Source of the DNA: an uncultured Bacteroidota bacterium
Lineage (GTDB): Bacteria > Bacteroidota > Bacteroidia > Flavobacteriales > Flavobacteriaceae
DNA: 64,000 nucleotides
Direction: 5' to 3'
Assembly: GCA_902629505.1 (NCBI GenBank)
Contig: CACORF010000004.1
Location: forward strand, 1-64,000
Shown here one piece after another: positions 11,959-54,584 of this stretch; within the stretch, counting starts at the first letter, position 1; the number at the start of each line of letters is the position of its first letter. The notes under the pieces were generated by a model. The model ran no database searches. It saw only the letters and a list, made by a program, of their open reading frames with translations, and was not told the DNA's origin. Made by a program: the position numbers and the translations under genes.

Positions 11959-12744
11959 ATGCAAGGAGATGTTAATCCAAAAAAATTCCTGGGTCAACAC
12001 TTTTTAATTGATGATAATATTTCCAAAAAAATAGTTGACAACATCAATTTCAAAAAATTCAAAAAAGTTATTGAAATAGGACCTGGGAAAGGGGCTCTAA
12101 CAAAGCATCTACTTCATATTAAAGATATACTTACTTTGATTGAGGTTGATAATGAATCCGTTGTTTTTCTCAAAAATGAGTTTATTAATGAGAAACTTGA
12201 TATAATTGAAAATGATTTCTTAAAGTTTGACATTCAGTCAGCATACCCATCAGAAGAAAACATATTAATTATTGGAAACTTTCCATATAATATTTCATCT
12301 CAAATATTATTTAAATCTATAGATAATTATAAGTCTGTAAAGGCAATTATAGGAATGTTTCAAAAGGAAGTTGCAGAAAGAATAATTAGTAAAAATAACT
12401 CTAAGCAGTACGGAATATTATCTGTTAAGACACAACTATTTTATGATACTAAAATTTTATTTGATGTTTCACCTAATGTTTTTTTTCCAAAACCTAAGGT
12501 TAATTCAGCAGTAATTTCATTAACTAGGAAAGAAAATATTAATATTGATTGTGATTTAGAATTATTAGACAGAATAATTAAATTAAGTTTTCAACATAGA
12601 AGAAAAAAAATAAAAAATTCTCTAAAAAAACTTGATATTGAAAAAAATATATTAGAAGATAGTATATTTGAATCAAGGCCCGAGCAACTTACTATTGAAG
12701 AATTTGTCAAATTAACAAAAAAAATAAGTAGTGAGACAATTTAA
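11959..12744 (+). CDS. rsmA: 16S rRNA (adenine1518-N6/adenine1519-N6)-dimethyltransferase
   Basis: 261 residues. The start NPKKFLGQHFLIDDNI is the family signature. The SAM-binding motif I is VIEIGPGKGALTKHLL and the catalytic motif IV is NFPYNISSQILF. The C-terminal helical domain has SFQHRRKKIKNSLKKL and RPEQLTIEEFVKL. The enzyme dimethylates two adjacent adenines in the 3' helix of 16S rRNA during 30S assembly. Its 3' end overlaps mgtE by 14 bases. Confidence 0.96.
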   Translation: MQGDVNPKKFLGQHFLIDDNISKKIVDNINFKKFKKVIEIGPGKGALTKHLLHIKDILTLIEVDNESVVFLKNEFINEKLDIIENDFLKFDIQSAYPSEENILIIGNFPYNISSQILFKSIDNYKSVKAIIGMFQKEVAERIISKNNSKQYGILSVKTQLFYDTKILFDVSPNVFFPKPKVNSAVISLTRKENINIDCDLELLDRIIKLSFQHRRKKIKNSLKKLDIEKNILEDSIFESRPEQLTIEEFVKLTKKISSETI

Positions 12745-50276: not shown

Positions 50277-50657
50277 ATGTTAAAAATTCCAATTTTACTT
50301 GTATTTATGGGGGTTTACTTATGTAGCAATTCACTTTATAGTCAGGAAAATTCTATAAGATATAATGATACCCTTACAAAGAAATTTTATGATTTAAAAA
50401 AGGATTACAGTAAGAGAGTTTATGAGTCAACTTTTTACACTATTCAAATCTATTATGGGGGTCTTGAAGATGCAGATTCTATTCTTGAGGATTTTAGAGA
50501 AAATTATCAAGAAATTAAATCAAATTTGATTTTTGAAACTCCAAATTATAAAGTTAGAATTGGAGAGTACAAAGATATAAATATTGCCTCTCAAAAATTA
50601 GAGGAGATTCGGAGAATTTATCCAAGCTCTTTTATAATAAAACTTTCTGATTTATAA
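50277..50657 (+). CDS. SPOR domain-containing exported protein
   Basis: 126 residues from the ATG at 50277. A signal peptide (MLKIPILLVFMGVYLCSNSLYSQ) precedes a short linker and a SPOR domain of about 70 residues (STFYTIQIYYGGLEDADSILEDF, NYKVRIGEYKDINIASQKLEEI, SSFIIKL). SPOR domains bind denuded glycan strands of septal peptidoglycan. It sits between actA and infB, convergent with infB and overlapping it by six bases. A small exported SPOR protein next to infB is common in flavobacteria. Confidence 0.85.
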   Translation: MLKIPILLVFMGVYLCSNSLYSQENSIRYNDTLTKKFYDLKKDYSKRVYESTFYTIQIYYGGLEDADSILEDFRENYQEIKSNLIFETPNYKVRIGEYKDINIASQKLEEIRRIYPSSFIIKLSDL

Positions 50658-53153
50658 TTTTCTTTTTATTGCAACTTCTTGGTAACATTGAATAGTGTCA
50701 CCTTCAACTAAATCATTGAACTCATCAATTTGAATACCACAATCATAGCCTTTTGCAACTTCTTTAACATCATCTTTAAATCTTTTTAGTGAAAGTAATT
50801 TCCCTTCAAAAATAACTTCATCGGATCTTACAACTCTCACATTTGAATTACGAAATATTTTTCCAGAGGTAACCATACATCCAGCTATAGTTCCAATTCT
50901 TGAAATTTTAAATGTCTCCCTAACTTCAGCCTCACCAGTACTTTCTTCTTTCATTTCAAGAGAAAGCATCCCCTCCATTGCATCTTTTAAATCGTTAATT
51001 GCATCATATATAATTGAATAAAATCTTATATCAATTTGTTCTTTTTCTGAAAGCTTTCTAGCACTATCAGTAGGCTTAACATTGAATCCTACAATTATAG
51101 CTTCGGATGCAGAGGCAAGTAAAACATCAGACTCAGTAATTGCTCCAACACCTTTAAAAATTATATTAACTTGAATTTCCTCAGTTGATAAATTTTCAAA
51201 TGAGTCTGTAAGTGCCTCAACTGAGCCATCAACATCTCCTTTAATAATTACATTGAGTTCCTTAAAGTCACCAATTGCAATTCTTCTGCCAATTTCGTCA
51301 AGAGTTAATTGTTTTTGAGTTCTAACATTTTGTTCTCTGACTAATTGTGTTCTTTTTGAGGCAATTAATTTAGCTTCTTTCTCATCTTCCAAGACCTTAA
51401 ATGGGTCACCGGCTTGGGGAGCTCCATCAAGTCCAAGTACAGACACAGGAGTTGAGGGTGTTGCAATTTTTAATGTTTTTCCTCCTTCATCAAACATTGC
51501 TTTTACTTTTCCACTAGTTTTTCCCGCTAACAAGTAATCACCTATTTTAAGGGAGCCATTTTGGACTAGCATTGTTGACACATAACCTCTACCCTTATCT
51601 AAATATGCTTCTAATACTGAACCTGTTGAGTTTTTATCTGGATTAGCTTTTAAATCCATAATCTCTGCTTCAAGTAAAACTTTTTCAAGAAGCGAGTCTA
51701 TACCTTTTCCATTTATAGCTGAAATATCTTGAGATTGAATCTTTCCACCCCAGTCCTCCACAACAAGATTCATTGATGCTAATGATTCTTTAACCTTATC
51801 TGGGTTAGCTCCCTCTTTATCAATTTTATTAATTGCAAATATGATCGGAACACCTCCAGCTTGTGCATGGCTAATTGCCTCTTTAGTCTGTGGCATTATG
51901 CTATCATCTGCAGCAATTACAATGATAACTATATCAGTTATTTGAGCTCCTCTCGCTCTCATAGCAGTAAATGCCTCATGACCGGGTGTATCAAGAAAAG
52001 TAATTTTTTTTGAATTATTAACTAAAACAGAATAAGCACCAATGTGTTGGGTAATTCCACCTGATTCTCCTTCAGTTACGGAGGAATTTCTTATATAATC
52101 TAGAAGAGATGTCTTACCATGATCAACATGCCCCATAACTGTTACAATTGGTGGTCTTTCTTTTAAAAATTTTGGATCGTCTTCTTCTACGACTTCATCT
52201 TTATCTTCTTCTATATCAGTTTTGATAAATTTTAATTGATAACCAAACTCATCTGCTACCACAGAAAGAGTTTCAGCATCTAGTCTTTGATTCATAGTAA
52301 CCATTATACCCAGTGTCATACATGCAGAGATAATATCGTTTGTTGTTACATCCATTAGAGTAGCAATTTCACCAACTGTAATAAATTCTGTTATTTTTAT
52401 GATCTTACTTTCTTTTTCAAGCAAAGCCTCTTCTTCTTCAGATTGAATTTTTCTTTGATCTCTTTTATCTTTTCGATATTTTGCTCCTTTAGATTTTGAA
52501 GATTTCCCTTGAAGTTTTTCTAATGTCTCTCTAATCTGTTTTTGAATTTCATCGTCAGTAGGTTCAACTTTTTGGTTAATAGCTTGTTTTTTATTTTTAT
52601 TAAACTTGCTTGCTGAATCTTTTGGTTGTGAAACATCCTTACTAATTCTTTTTCTTCTTCTCTTTTTTGATTCTTCTACTTTATTTTCTTTTTTCTTTAT
52701 TGAGTCAAGATCAATCACCTCACCAGTCTTTTTTATACCTGAAAGTTTTTGGAAATTGGTTTGAATTTTAGATGAGGTACTATCGTCTGAAGGTGGTTCA
52801 ATTTTCAAGTCTTCACCTTTATCATTATCTGCAGAATCTTTTTCTGTAGTTGATCCAGTTATTTCAGTTTTTATCTCCAAAATGTCCTCAGTCTTCATCT
52901 CCTCTACTTGCTTCTCCTCTGCCTGTTTCTCCTCTAATTCTTTTCTTTTCTTTGTGTTTATTTCTTCTAATTTGTCTTTATCAGATTTATCAGTTTGAAA
53001 CTCATCGAGCAAAAGGTCATATATGTCTTGATCAATTTTTGATGTCGGTCTTGGTTCAATTTCAATTTTTTTTGAACCCAAAAACTCAACAGCTCTGTCT
53101 AGAGATATATTTAATTCCTTAAGTACTTTATTTAACCTTATTGGTGATGGCAT
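50652..53153 (-). CDS. infB: Translation initiation factor IF-2
   Basis: 833 residues. A long charged, low-complexity N-terminal half (about 60-235, rich in Lys/Glu) precedes IF2 N-terminal elements and the G domain: G1 GHVDHGKTSLLD, G3 DTPGHEAFTAMRARGAQ and G4 INKIDKEGANPDKV. Domains II, III and IV follow, with NVIIKGDVDGSVEALTDSF and GIQIDEFNDLVEGDTIQCY. IF-2 places initiator tRNA on the 30S subunit with GTP. It lies nine bases after nusA. The variable N-terminal region is rather short. Confidence 0.96.
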   Translation of the reverse strand: MPSPIRLNKVLKELNISLDRAVEFLGSKKIEIEPRPTSKIDQDIYDLLLDEFQTDKSDKDKLEEINTKKRKELEEKQAEEKQVEEMKTEDILEIKTEITGSTTEKDSADNDKGEDLKIEPPSDDSTSSKIQTNFQKLSGIKKTGEVIDLDSIKKKENKVEESKKRRRKRISKDVSQPKDSASKFNKNKKQAINQKVEPTDDEIQKQIRETLEKLQGKSSKSKGAKYRKDKRDQRKIQSEEEEALLEKESKIIKITEFITVGEIATLMDVTTNDIISACMTLGIMVTMNQRLDAETLSVVADEFGYQLKFIKTDIEEDKDEVVEEDDPKFLKERPPIVTVMGHVDHGKTSLLDYIRNSSVTEGESGGITQHIGAYSVLVNNSKKITFLDTPGHEAFTAMRARGAQITDIVIIVIAADDSIMPQTKEAISHAQAGGVPIIFAINKIDKEGANPDKVKESLASMNLVVEDWGGKIQSQDISAINGKGIDSLLEKVLLEAEIMDLKANPDKNSTGSVLEAYLDKGRGYVSTMLVQNGSLKIGDYLLAGKTSGKVKAMFDEGGKTLKIATPSTPVSVLGLDGAPQAGDPFKVLEDEKEAKLIASKRTQLVREQNVRTQKQLTLDEIGRRIAIGDFKELNVIIKGDVDGSVEALTDSFENLSTEEIQVNIIFKGVGAITESDVLLASASEAIIVGFNVKPTDSARKLSEKEQIDIRFYSIIYDAINDLKDAMEGMLSLEMKEESTGEAEVRETFKISRIGTIAGCMVTSGKIFRNSNVRVVRSDEVIFEGKLLSLKRFKDDVKEVAKGYDCGIQIDEFNDLVEGDTIQCYQEVAIKRKL

Positions 53154-53162
53154 ATTTACAAT

Positions 53163-54395
53163 TTAATCTTCAAATTCCTCTTTTAAAATTTTTAAAACAT
53201 CTGAGACTGTTTCTTCTTCAAGATCAGTTCTTTTAACAAGATCCTCTTCACTTAACTCTAAAACACTCTTAGCGGTATCAAGTCCAACTTTTCTAAATTC
53301 TTCAATAACCCATGCGTCAATTTCATCTTTGAACTCTGTAAGTTCAACATCTTCTTCTGCACCTTCTCTGTATACATCGATTTCATATCCAGTTAGTCTG
53401 CCAGCAAGTCTTATATTATGTCCTCCTTTTCCAATAGCTCTCGAAACCTCATCGGGATTTAGATAAACCTGAACTGTTTTTTTCTCTTCATCAATATTTA
53501 GAGAATTCACTTTCGCCGGGCTTAATGCTCTTGTTATAAATAACTGAGTATTATTTGTGTAATTGATCACATCTATATTTTCATTCCCTAACTCCCTTAC
53601 TATTCCGTGTATTCTAGAACCTTTCATTCCCACACACGCTCCTACAGGGTCAATTCTATCATCATATGAGTCAACAGCGACTTTTGCCTTTTCACCTGGA
53701 ATTCTTACCGCTTTTTTTATAGTAATTAATCCATCGAAAACTTCTGGAATTTCTTGTTCAAATAATTTTTCTAAGAAAAGAGGTGAGGTTCTTGAGAATA
53801 TTATCCTTGGTTTATTCCCCCTTAACTCAACATTTTCAATTACACCTCTTACGTTATCTCCCTTTCTAAAAAAGTCCTTAGGTATTTGCCTATCTTTTGG
53901 CATTATTAATTCATTTCCATCATCATCTAAAAGAATAACTTCTCTTGCTCTTACATGATGCACCTCAGCAGTAAAGATTTCTCCAACTCTATCCTTGAAC
54001 TGATTAAATATGTTATTACTGTCGTGCTCAAAAACTTTTGCAACAAGGTTCTGTCTTAGTGATTGAATTGATCTCCTTCCTAGATCTATTAGCTTAAATT
54101 CCTCAGAAACTTCTTCTCCAACTTCAAAGTCAGGTTCAATTTTAACTGCTTCCTTAAGTTCAATCTCTGCATTTGGGTCCTCAACTTGACCATCTTTAAC
54201 AACTATCCTATTTCTCCATATTTCTAAGTCTCCTTTGTCAGGGTTGATGATAATATCGAAATTCTCATCGGTTCCATATTTTCTAGTAAGAGTATTTCTA
54301 AATACCTCCTCTAGTATAACCATCAAGGTTACTCTATCGATTAACTTTTCGTCTTTGAATTCAGAAAAGGAATCTAATAATGATATATTTTCCAT
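53163..54395 (-). CDS. nusA: Transcription termination/antitermination factor NusA
   Basis: 410 residues. The N-terminal RNA-polymerase-binding domain (about 1-130) is followed by an S1 domain (about 135-200, GEIFTAEVHHVRAREVILL) and tandem KH domains (VDSYDDRIDPVGACVGMKGSRIHGIVREL and DEVSRAIGKGGHNIRLAGRLTGYEIDVY). A short acidic C-terminal part resembles a degenerate helix-hairpin repeat. NusA modulates pausing and intrinsic termination. It is co-transcribed with infB. rimP, normally just upstream, is absent; a terminator-like hairpin occupies the leader instead. Confidence 0.96.
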   Translation of the reverse strand: MENISLLDSFSEFKDEKLIDRVTLMVILEEVFRNTLTRKYGTDENFDIIINPDKGDLEIWRNRIVVKDGQVEDPNAEIELKEAVKIEPDFEVGEEVSEEFKLIDLGRRSIQSLRQNLVAKVFEHDSNNIFNQFKDRVGEIFTAEVHHVRAREVILLDDDGNELIMPKDRQIPKDFFRKGDNVRGVIENVELRGNKPRIIFSRTSPLFLEKLFEQEIPEVFDGLITIKKAVRIPGEKAKVAVDSYDDRIDPVGACVGMKGSRIHGIVRELGNENIDVINYTNNTQLFITRALSPAKVNSLNIDEEKKTVQVYLNPDEVSRAIGKGGHNIRLAGRLTGYEIDVYREGAEEDVELTEFKDEIDAWVIEEFRKVGLDTAKSVLELSEEDLVKRTDLEEETVSDVLKILKEEFED

Positions 54396-54411
54396 TTACT
54401 TAACTTTATTT

Positions 54412-54441
54412 AAAAAAAAAGAGGGACATAATGTCGCCTCT
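54412..54441 (-). terminator. Intrinsic terminator-like hairpin in the nusA leader
   Basis: On the minus strand AGAGG-(C bulge)-GACA-TTA-TGTC-CCTCT forms a nine-pair stem with a three-base loop, its last U followed by eight more U residues. It ends 16 bases before the nusA ATG and lies downstream of a -7 box, with no room for another promoter behind it. It may terminate the tRNA-Gln transcript, attenuate nusA-infB, or both. Confidence 0.65.
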
Positions 54442-54460
54442 GAAATATCAAAATGCTTGG

Positions 54461-54468
54461 CAAATTTA
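54461..54468 (-). promoter_or_regulatory. Candidate -7 promoter box of nusA-infB
   Basis: CAAATTTA on the plus strand is TAAATTTG on the minus strand, an exact TAnnTTTG match 19 bases upstream of the hairpin at 54420-54441 and 27 bases downstream of the tRNA-Gln 3' end. A transcript starting here would include the hairpin in its 5' leader. Confidence 0.45.
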
Positions 54469-54495
54469 TTATAAATTATTGATATAATAAAATTG

Positions 54496-54568
54496 TTGGC
54501 CTACTAGGGATCGAACCTAGACTCTTCTGGACCAAAACCAGACGTGTTGCCAGTTACACCATAGGCCA
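54496..54568 (-). tRNA. tRNA-Gln (anticodon UUG)
   Basis: 73 bases on the minus strand. The acceptor TGGCCTA pairs with TAGGCCA, with discriminator A; CCA is not encoded. The D-arm is TGGTGTAACTGGCAACACG, the anticodon stem TCTGG/CCAGA encloses TTTTGGT with anticodon TTG, and the T-arm is CTAGGTTCGATCCCTAG. It reads CAA and CAG glutamine codons. Confidence 0.96.
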
Positions 54569-54576
54569 ATTAGCTG

Positions 54577-54584
54577 CAAATTTA
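54577..54584 (-). promoter_or_regulatory. Candidate -7 promoter box of tRNA-Gln
   Basis: CAAATTTA on the plus strand is TAAATTTG on the minus strand, an exact TAnnTTTG match eight bases upstream of the first tRNA base. The spacing resembles the tRNA-Leu box at 7327, which supports both. Confidence 0.5.

Follow-up and report, generated by a model that had tools for sequence, protein, structure and literature searches.

The locus raises the question of whether the hairpin in front of nusA is a regulatory terminator of nusA-infB and, if so, which factor it answers to. The window, meaning the whole stretch of 64,000 nucleotides analysed here, belongs to a Flavobacteriaceae MAG of 864,596 bases that is 72% complete; named relatives with 91–99% identical NusA are marine genomes of the MED-G11, MED-G122 and AG-893-B06 type. 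The initial annotation described a nine-pair hairpin with one bulged C and a three-base loop, followed by nine U and 16 nt to the ATG, and direct reading reproduced this exactly. On the minus strand the order is a TAAATTTG box, 19 nt, the hairpin, nine T, 16 bases and the nusA ATG at 54395 (Table 1). The box is of the TAnnTTTG promoter type (consensus as in PMC6847099), and no clear -33 element was found upstream of it. The stretch between box and hairpin includes GCATTTTGA, which resembles, by column frequencies, a partly conserved family segment. The NusA search gave a single match in most of the family genomes searched. Upstream, tRNA-Gln has its own TAAATTTG box at a distance of 8 nt, and no GC-rich terminator lies between this tRNA gene and the nusA hairpin. 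Because tRNA-Gln has its own box, transcripts from its promoter would also meet the nusA hairpin, which may also end tRNA-Gln transcripts in the window's genus.

Table 1. Features of the nusA leader and its surroundings in the window.
Feature	Coordinates	Strand	Basis
Promoter -7 box TAAATTTG, Bacteroidota TAnnTTTG type	54461..54468	minus	sequence; family conservation
Box-to-hairpin stretch (19 nt), with probable transcription start	54442..54460	minus	start inferred from box
Predicted terminator hairpin AGAGG(C)GACA-TTA-TGTCCCTCT, nine pairs, one bulged C	54420..54441	minus	sequence, folding, conservation, covariation
Hairpin 5' arm, AGAGG	54441-54437	minus	
Hairpin 5' arm, bulged C	54436	minus	
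Hairpin 5' arm, GACA	54435-54432	minus	
Hairpin loop, TTA	54431-54429	minus	
Hairpin 3' arm, TGTC	54428-54425	minus	
Hairpin 3' arm, CCTCT	54424-54420	minus	
U tract, nine T, first T paired with stem	54412..54420	minus	sequence
A-rich 16-nt spacer AAATAAAGTTAAGTAA to nusA start codon	54396..54411	minus	sequence
nusA, 410 aa, first protein gene 3' of leader	53163..54395	minus	ORF
infB, 833 aa, 9 nt 3' of nusA	50652..53153	minus	ORF and sequence; named from sequence
tRNA-Gln (TTG), upstream of leader	54495..54568	minus	ARAGORN and Rfam
Likely tRNA-Gln promoter box TAAATTTG	54577..54584	minus	sequence; likeness to consensus

The hairpin and its tail fold with a predicted energy of -9.8 kcal/mol (z = -4.8), and none of 200 shuffles was equally stable; folding of the region 54396-54455 gave z = -2.85, again with 0/200 equally stable shuffles. 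A stable GC-containing stem followed by at least six U in the first nine bases, the pattern taken to define an intrinsic terminator, is present. An automated terminator scan of the window did not list the nusA hairpin, presumably owing to the bulge. For the genomic background, hairpins were counted on a 1.11 Mb contig from a congeneric genome (G217), where 75 intergenic ones were followed by a T run versus 19 by an A run. A start codon followed within 60 nt for 21 of the T-run hairpins, of which just six, nusA included, did not also lie within 100 nt behind a same-strand protein gene (1,104 ORFs). With -9.3, compared with a median of -11.6 across the 37 hairpins behind genes, the nusA hairpin of this contig was among the weaker ones, as expected for a leaky or regulated terminator. 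Two of the five other leader cases, near 12439 (minus strand) and 762503 (plus strand) of contig G217:C1, consist of a leader-type hairpin and U tract before carB-like and pheA-like genes, the likeness being judged from the gene sequences. The carB and pheA genes are classical attenuation targets, and these two leaders are putative attenuation candidates. A search of the genus genome for a second copy of the nusA element gave as its best covariance-model match (L224:10427) a palindrome resembling a two-way terminator; the leader of nusA itself ranked only fourth, and further copies may escape so short a model.

Absence of the hairpin from close relatives had been named as an observation that would speak against an attenuator. 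The hairpin was present in 22/22 genus leaders holding the nusA start (20 from one comparison, the window and L002), and the box, the U tract and the spacing were kept with it. Across 28 genus loci, which partly repeat the same genomes, the arms were invariant except for the bulge base (C, once A), and the loop took six forms. The tRNA-Gln gene adjoins the leader upstream in all 17 genus loci scanned. The genomes compared were mostly MAGs.

The same layout of box, hairpin, U tract and start codon was found in 105/105 Flavobacteriaceae leaders (74 distinct hairpins), three of which the automatic fold missed and which were located by sequence; outside the genus, the gene 3' of the leader is in nearly all cases rimP, followed by nusA. 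A TAnnTTTG-type box lies 14–30 nt (median 25) upstream of the hairpin in every one of the 105, and its strict form occurs in 102 of them, versus about 2.6% expected in the 17-nt range; the reading of the box as a promoter is supported because it is conserved across leaders. After the stem, at least three T occur in the first five bases in 121/121 leaders, and all five are T in 107. The distance to the start codon ranges from 4 to 26 nt and is once 111. A loose segment, GCATTnTGAA, CGTTGAAAG or ACATTCTGAA, was noticed in the first 10–15 bases after the box (window 54442-54460; L003-L110); lying near the probable mRNA 5' end, it is perhaps a start-site sequence or a factor site.

The comparison of related leaders that the initial annotation had proposed revealed, besides the retained U tract (121/121), compensatory changes in five of the eight stem pairs. 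The covarying stem variants are GAGGGGAC/GTCCCCTC, GAGCGGAC/GTCCGCTC, GAGAGGAC/GTCCTCTC, GAGGGGAT/ATCCCCTC, GAGGGGGC/GCCCCCTC and TAGAAGAC/GTCTTCTT. In 24 aligned ungapped hairpins, two-sided changes at these five pairs occupied 11 cells, and 96.9% of cells were paired; none of 500 shuffles scored as high, and sliding the partner destroyed the signal. When the register was fixed by structure, 23 distinct arm pairs nearly always formed seven of the eight pairs, and pair 5 was G-C, A-U, an A.C mismatch or, as in the window, a bulge. Four leaders with a deviating stem or a loop outside the rule (L007, L045, L058 and L087) were left out of the structure-register counts. In two of them, L007 and L045, the stem core is now AGAGGC...GCCTCT, with hairpin, U tract and position kept, and the leader adjoins a divergent RimP. 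A chance hairpin was ruled out by the shuffle tests, the covariation and the phylum-wide count against the A-run control given below.

The genus of the window differs from the rest of the family in its operon. RimP_N (PF02576) was detected in 0/21 genus genomes versus 96/100 other family genomes. A RimP family profile built from 15 family members also found none in 13/13 genus genomes and recovered rimP in 8/8 positive controls, among them the divergent rimP of G016 that the Pfam model misses. The family profile likewise detected no RimP in the genomes of L048, L249, L250, L252, L253 and L256. A hairpin with a T run lies about 30, 60 and 20 nt before nusA in L249, L250 and L253, respectively, with no intervening gene, and about 100–140 nt before nusA in L256 and L252. 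Altogether, five rimP-less lineages retain a hairpin and T run, 7 to about 110 nt upstream of nusA; no leader hairpin was found before nusA in L258, from a genome of 0.3 Mb. At L048:2854-3000, a fragment of about 30 codons resembling the RimP C-terminus lies 3' of an intact leader hairpin, an arrangement that may be an intermediate of rimP loss. In a NusA tree made by a quick method, in which some long rows are unsure, the rimP-less rows fall in separate places and imply seven changes, at least five of them forced by well-supported (starred) branches; for example, L249 stands beside the rimP-bearing L099, and L048 groups with L044 and L049. Independent rimP losses in which the hairpin was retained appear to have occurred in at least four lineages besides the window's genus.

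Judged from gene order and sequence, the window element is by descent the leader of an ancestral rimP-nusA-infB operon, and it now abuts nusA because rimP was lost in this genus. This goes beyond the initial annotation, which saw neither the ancestral leader nor the missing rimP, nor that the type of element had already been described. RimP feedback is ruled out in the window's genus by the absence of rimP in both the Pfam and the family-profile searches. Since rimP has been lost repeatedly with the hairpin kept, RimP can be dropped as a candidate in those lineages, and the element serves nusA-infB. That the leader has survived the loss of rimP speaks against RimP as its sensor or its only target.

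In 24 other Bacteroidota families, we found a hairpin and T run before rimP in 55/56 loci, against two in the A-run control. The threshold was -8 kcal/mol or better within 250 nt before the rimP match; the Pfam match served as the anchor of the scan, longest-ORF rimP starts being unreliable outside the family. Flavobacteriales outside the family accounted for 25/26 loci (10 families; A-run control 2) and further families of the phylum for 30/30 (14 families; A-run control 0). The stem sequences differ widely among these 24 families. Some of these hairpins could be ends of upstream genes, although this is made less likely by how near they lie to the start. An unusually long leader hairpin, GGGGAGC...GCTCCCC, occurs in L139 and L144 (family f8); like a two-way terminator, it is picked up by the A-run control as well.

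Taken together, the element is very probably a real premature intrinsic terminator in the leader, as predicted from its sequence and conservation. The proposal of the initial annotation, a candidate attenuator of nusA-infB, is well supported by conservation, covariation, the kept U tract, the kept box and the placement. RNA polymerase would start a few bases after the TAAATTTG box and make about 40–50 nt; at the hairpin and U tract, the short RNA would be released or polymerase would read through into nusA-infB. NusA promotes hairpin-dependent termination, and a high NusA level would thus raise termination and lower nusA-infB mRNA. We infer both termination at the hairpin in vivo and the role of NusA as sensor, and the suggested feedback at this leader draws by analogy on E. 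coli, where NusA down-regulates the operon that encodes it (cited in PMC2965389).

Classical switches were considered as well. No antiterminator was found in 105 leaders, the hairpin being part of the minimum-energy fold in 105/105 and the upstream structure weak; with no rival structure of note, an antiterminator switch was ruled out. Leader-peptide attenuation was ruled out, because no conserved leader peptide was found: even inside the genus, reading frames ahead of the hairpin and across it are not conserved, as shown by a one-base difference between L031 and L033 in the box-to-hairpin stretch. A leader of this length has no room for a sensor. Without an antiterminator or leader peptide, the choice between stopping and reading on should therefore rest with polymerase-bound factors and not with the ribosome or a ligand. 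The reading as NusA autoregulation is strengthened because the rimP losses leave the hairpin in place. As a whole, a leader terminator of nusA-infB with NusA feedback as the best guess is the account we favour, with modest confidence. The broader claim that the widespread 'rimP leader' is a RimP-independent feedback attenuator of nusA-infB regulated by NusA, kept in at least five rimP-less Flavobacteriales lineages, is more tentative, and we consider it possible without yet calling it probable.

Other explanations have to be weighed against NusA feedback. A fixed leaky terminator, which would hold the proportion of short RNA to nusA-infB mRNA constant with no feedback, agrees with the absence of a sensor domain, a ligand pocket and an antiterminator from the leader, and low hairpin stability fits leakiness; however, phylum-wide conservation before the operon of a termination factor, together with repeated retention after rimP loss, goes beyond what would be needed to do the work of a weaker promoter, and we consider this explanation unlikely. 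A premature terminator answering to another regulator, such as cold-shock antiterminators, NusG or an initiation or ribosome signal, would recall the E. coli operon, which is strongly cold-induced with band patterns suggesting that promoters or terminators are used differently. The E. coli work cites antitermination by CspA-family proteins, and the hosts here are cold-water bacteria, but no conserved single-stranded target was found except the loose segment after the box. We consider another regulator rather improbable.

The hairpin might instead terminate tRNA-Gln or an upstream desaturase-like gene, with a nusA promoter that bypasses it. The tRNA gene is 54 nt upstream, has its own box and is separated from the leader by no other GC-rich hairpin. 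Nevertheless, 35 of the 44 non-genus loci L037-L080 have no tRNA in the stretch covered, and the intact leaders there keep the hairpin; the promoter box is conserved upstream of the hairpin in 105/105 leaders; just 16 nt are left after the U tract; and L023 has a separate hairpin directly 3' of tRNA-Gln. We regard this explanation as very improbable. Equally little weight is given to a 5' hairpin acting on mRNA stability or translation start and not on termination. Its closeness to the 5' end and start codon would suit such a role, and the main text on Flavobacterium psychrophilum calls the rimP element just structured (PMC9723704), but a stability hairpin needs no U run, which follows the stem in 121/121 leaders, and the spacing to the start codon is not fixed (4 to 26 nt, once 111).

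The closest known system is the rimP-leader attenuator (Naville & Gautheret 2010, Genome Biol 11:R97, PMC2965389), a terminator hairpin with a G-rich and a C-rich arm and a T stretch, 4–130 nt before the first gene of rimP-nusA-infB and with no antiterminator. In 2010 it was described as the most ubiquitous bacterial attenuator; RimP and NusA were both left as candidate controllers, NusA was named the best candidate, and Bacteroidetes are not mentioned in the main text (PMC2965389). The window hairpin is likewise directly 5' of a T stretch, its U tract ends 16 nt before the ATG, inside the 4–130 nt range, and no antiterminator is visible in window-type leaders. In contrast to the rimP-leader, the leader of the window and its genus stands before nusA and lacks rimP; the relatives with rimP match the described position. 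The rimP-leader stem is GGGc(...)gCCC; the window core is GG(C)GAC...GUCCC with a bulge, and relatives have GGGGAC...GUCCCC. At the DNA level, the window has GAGGCGAC...GTCCCTC, in which CCC is present and GGG is interrupted by the bulge, and most relatives have GGGGAC...GTCCCC. The window element is thus a positional orthologue of the rimP-leader, not a literal member.

Three further systems invite comparison. A structured 5' element before rimP, common to Flavobacteriaceae genera and without an Rfam match, is described in the F. psychrophilum transcriptome study (ISME Commun 2021, PMC9723704). It is very probably the ancestral form of the window leader; the species concerned have rimP, and the main text includes no rimP-less case and does not call the element a terminator. 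The gammaproteobacterial Rfam family RF01770 'rimP' is alike in operon position and terminator character, whereas it is longer and has tandem terminators; its covariance model gave no match at the gathering score in the window or at the leaders of eight relatives, the single line reported being below the cut-off and away from the leaders. In E. coli metY-rimP-nusA-infB, a tRNA gene and terminators (t1, t2) also precede the operon, whose expression NusA reduces, but the tRNA is a different one, the leader is longer, and RNase III sites and rimP are present.

An earlier report of the rimP-less form was not found in the open-access literature searched, whose coverage is incomplete. The natural rimP losses with a terminator beside nusA argue against RimP as the sensor, and the rimP-less leaders, small and simple at about 70 nt, are suited to direct tests of NusA feedback. 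The element is spread over Bacteroidota, where no Rfam model covers it. What was already known is the rimP-leader kind and, from the 2021 study, the 5' element before rimP; to these, the present analysis adds the rimP-less form and the repeated losses of rimP, along with the covarying stem and the count across the phylum.
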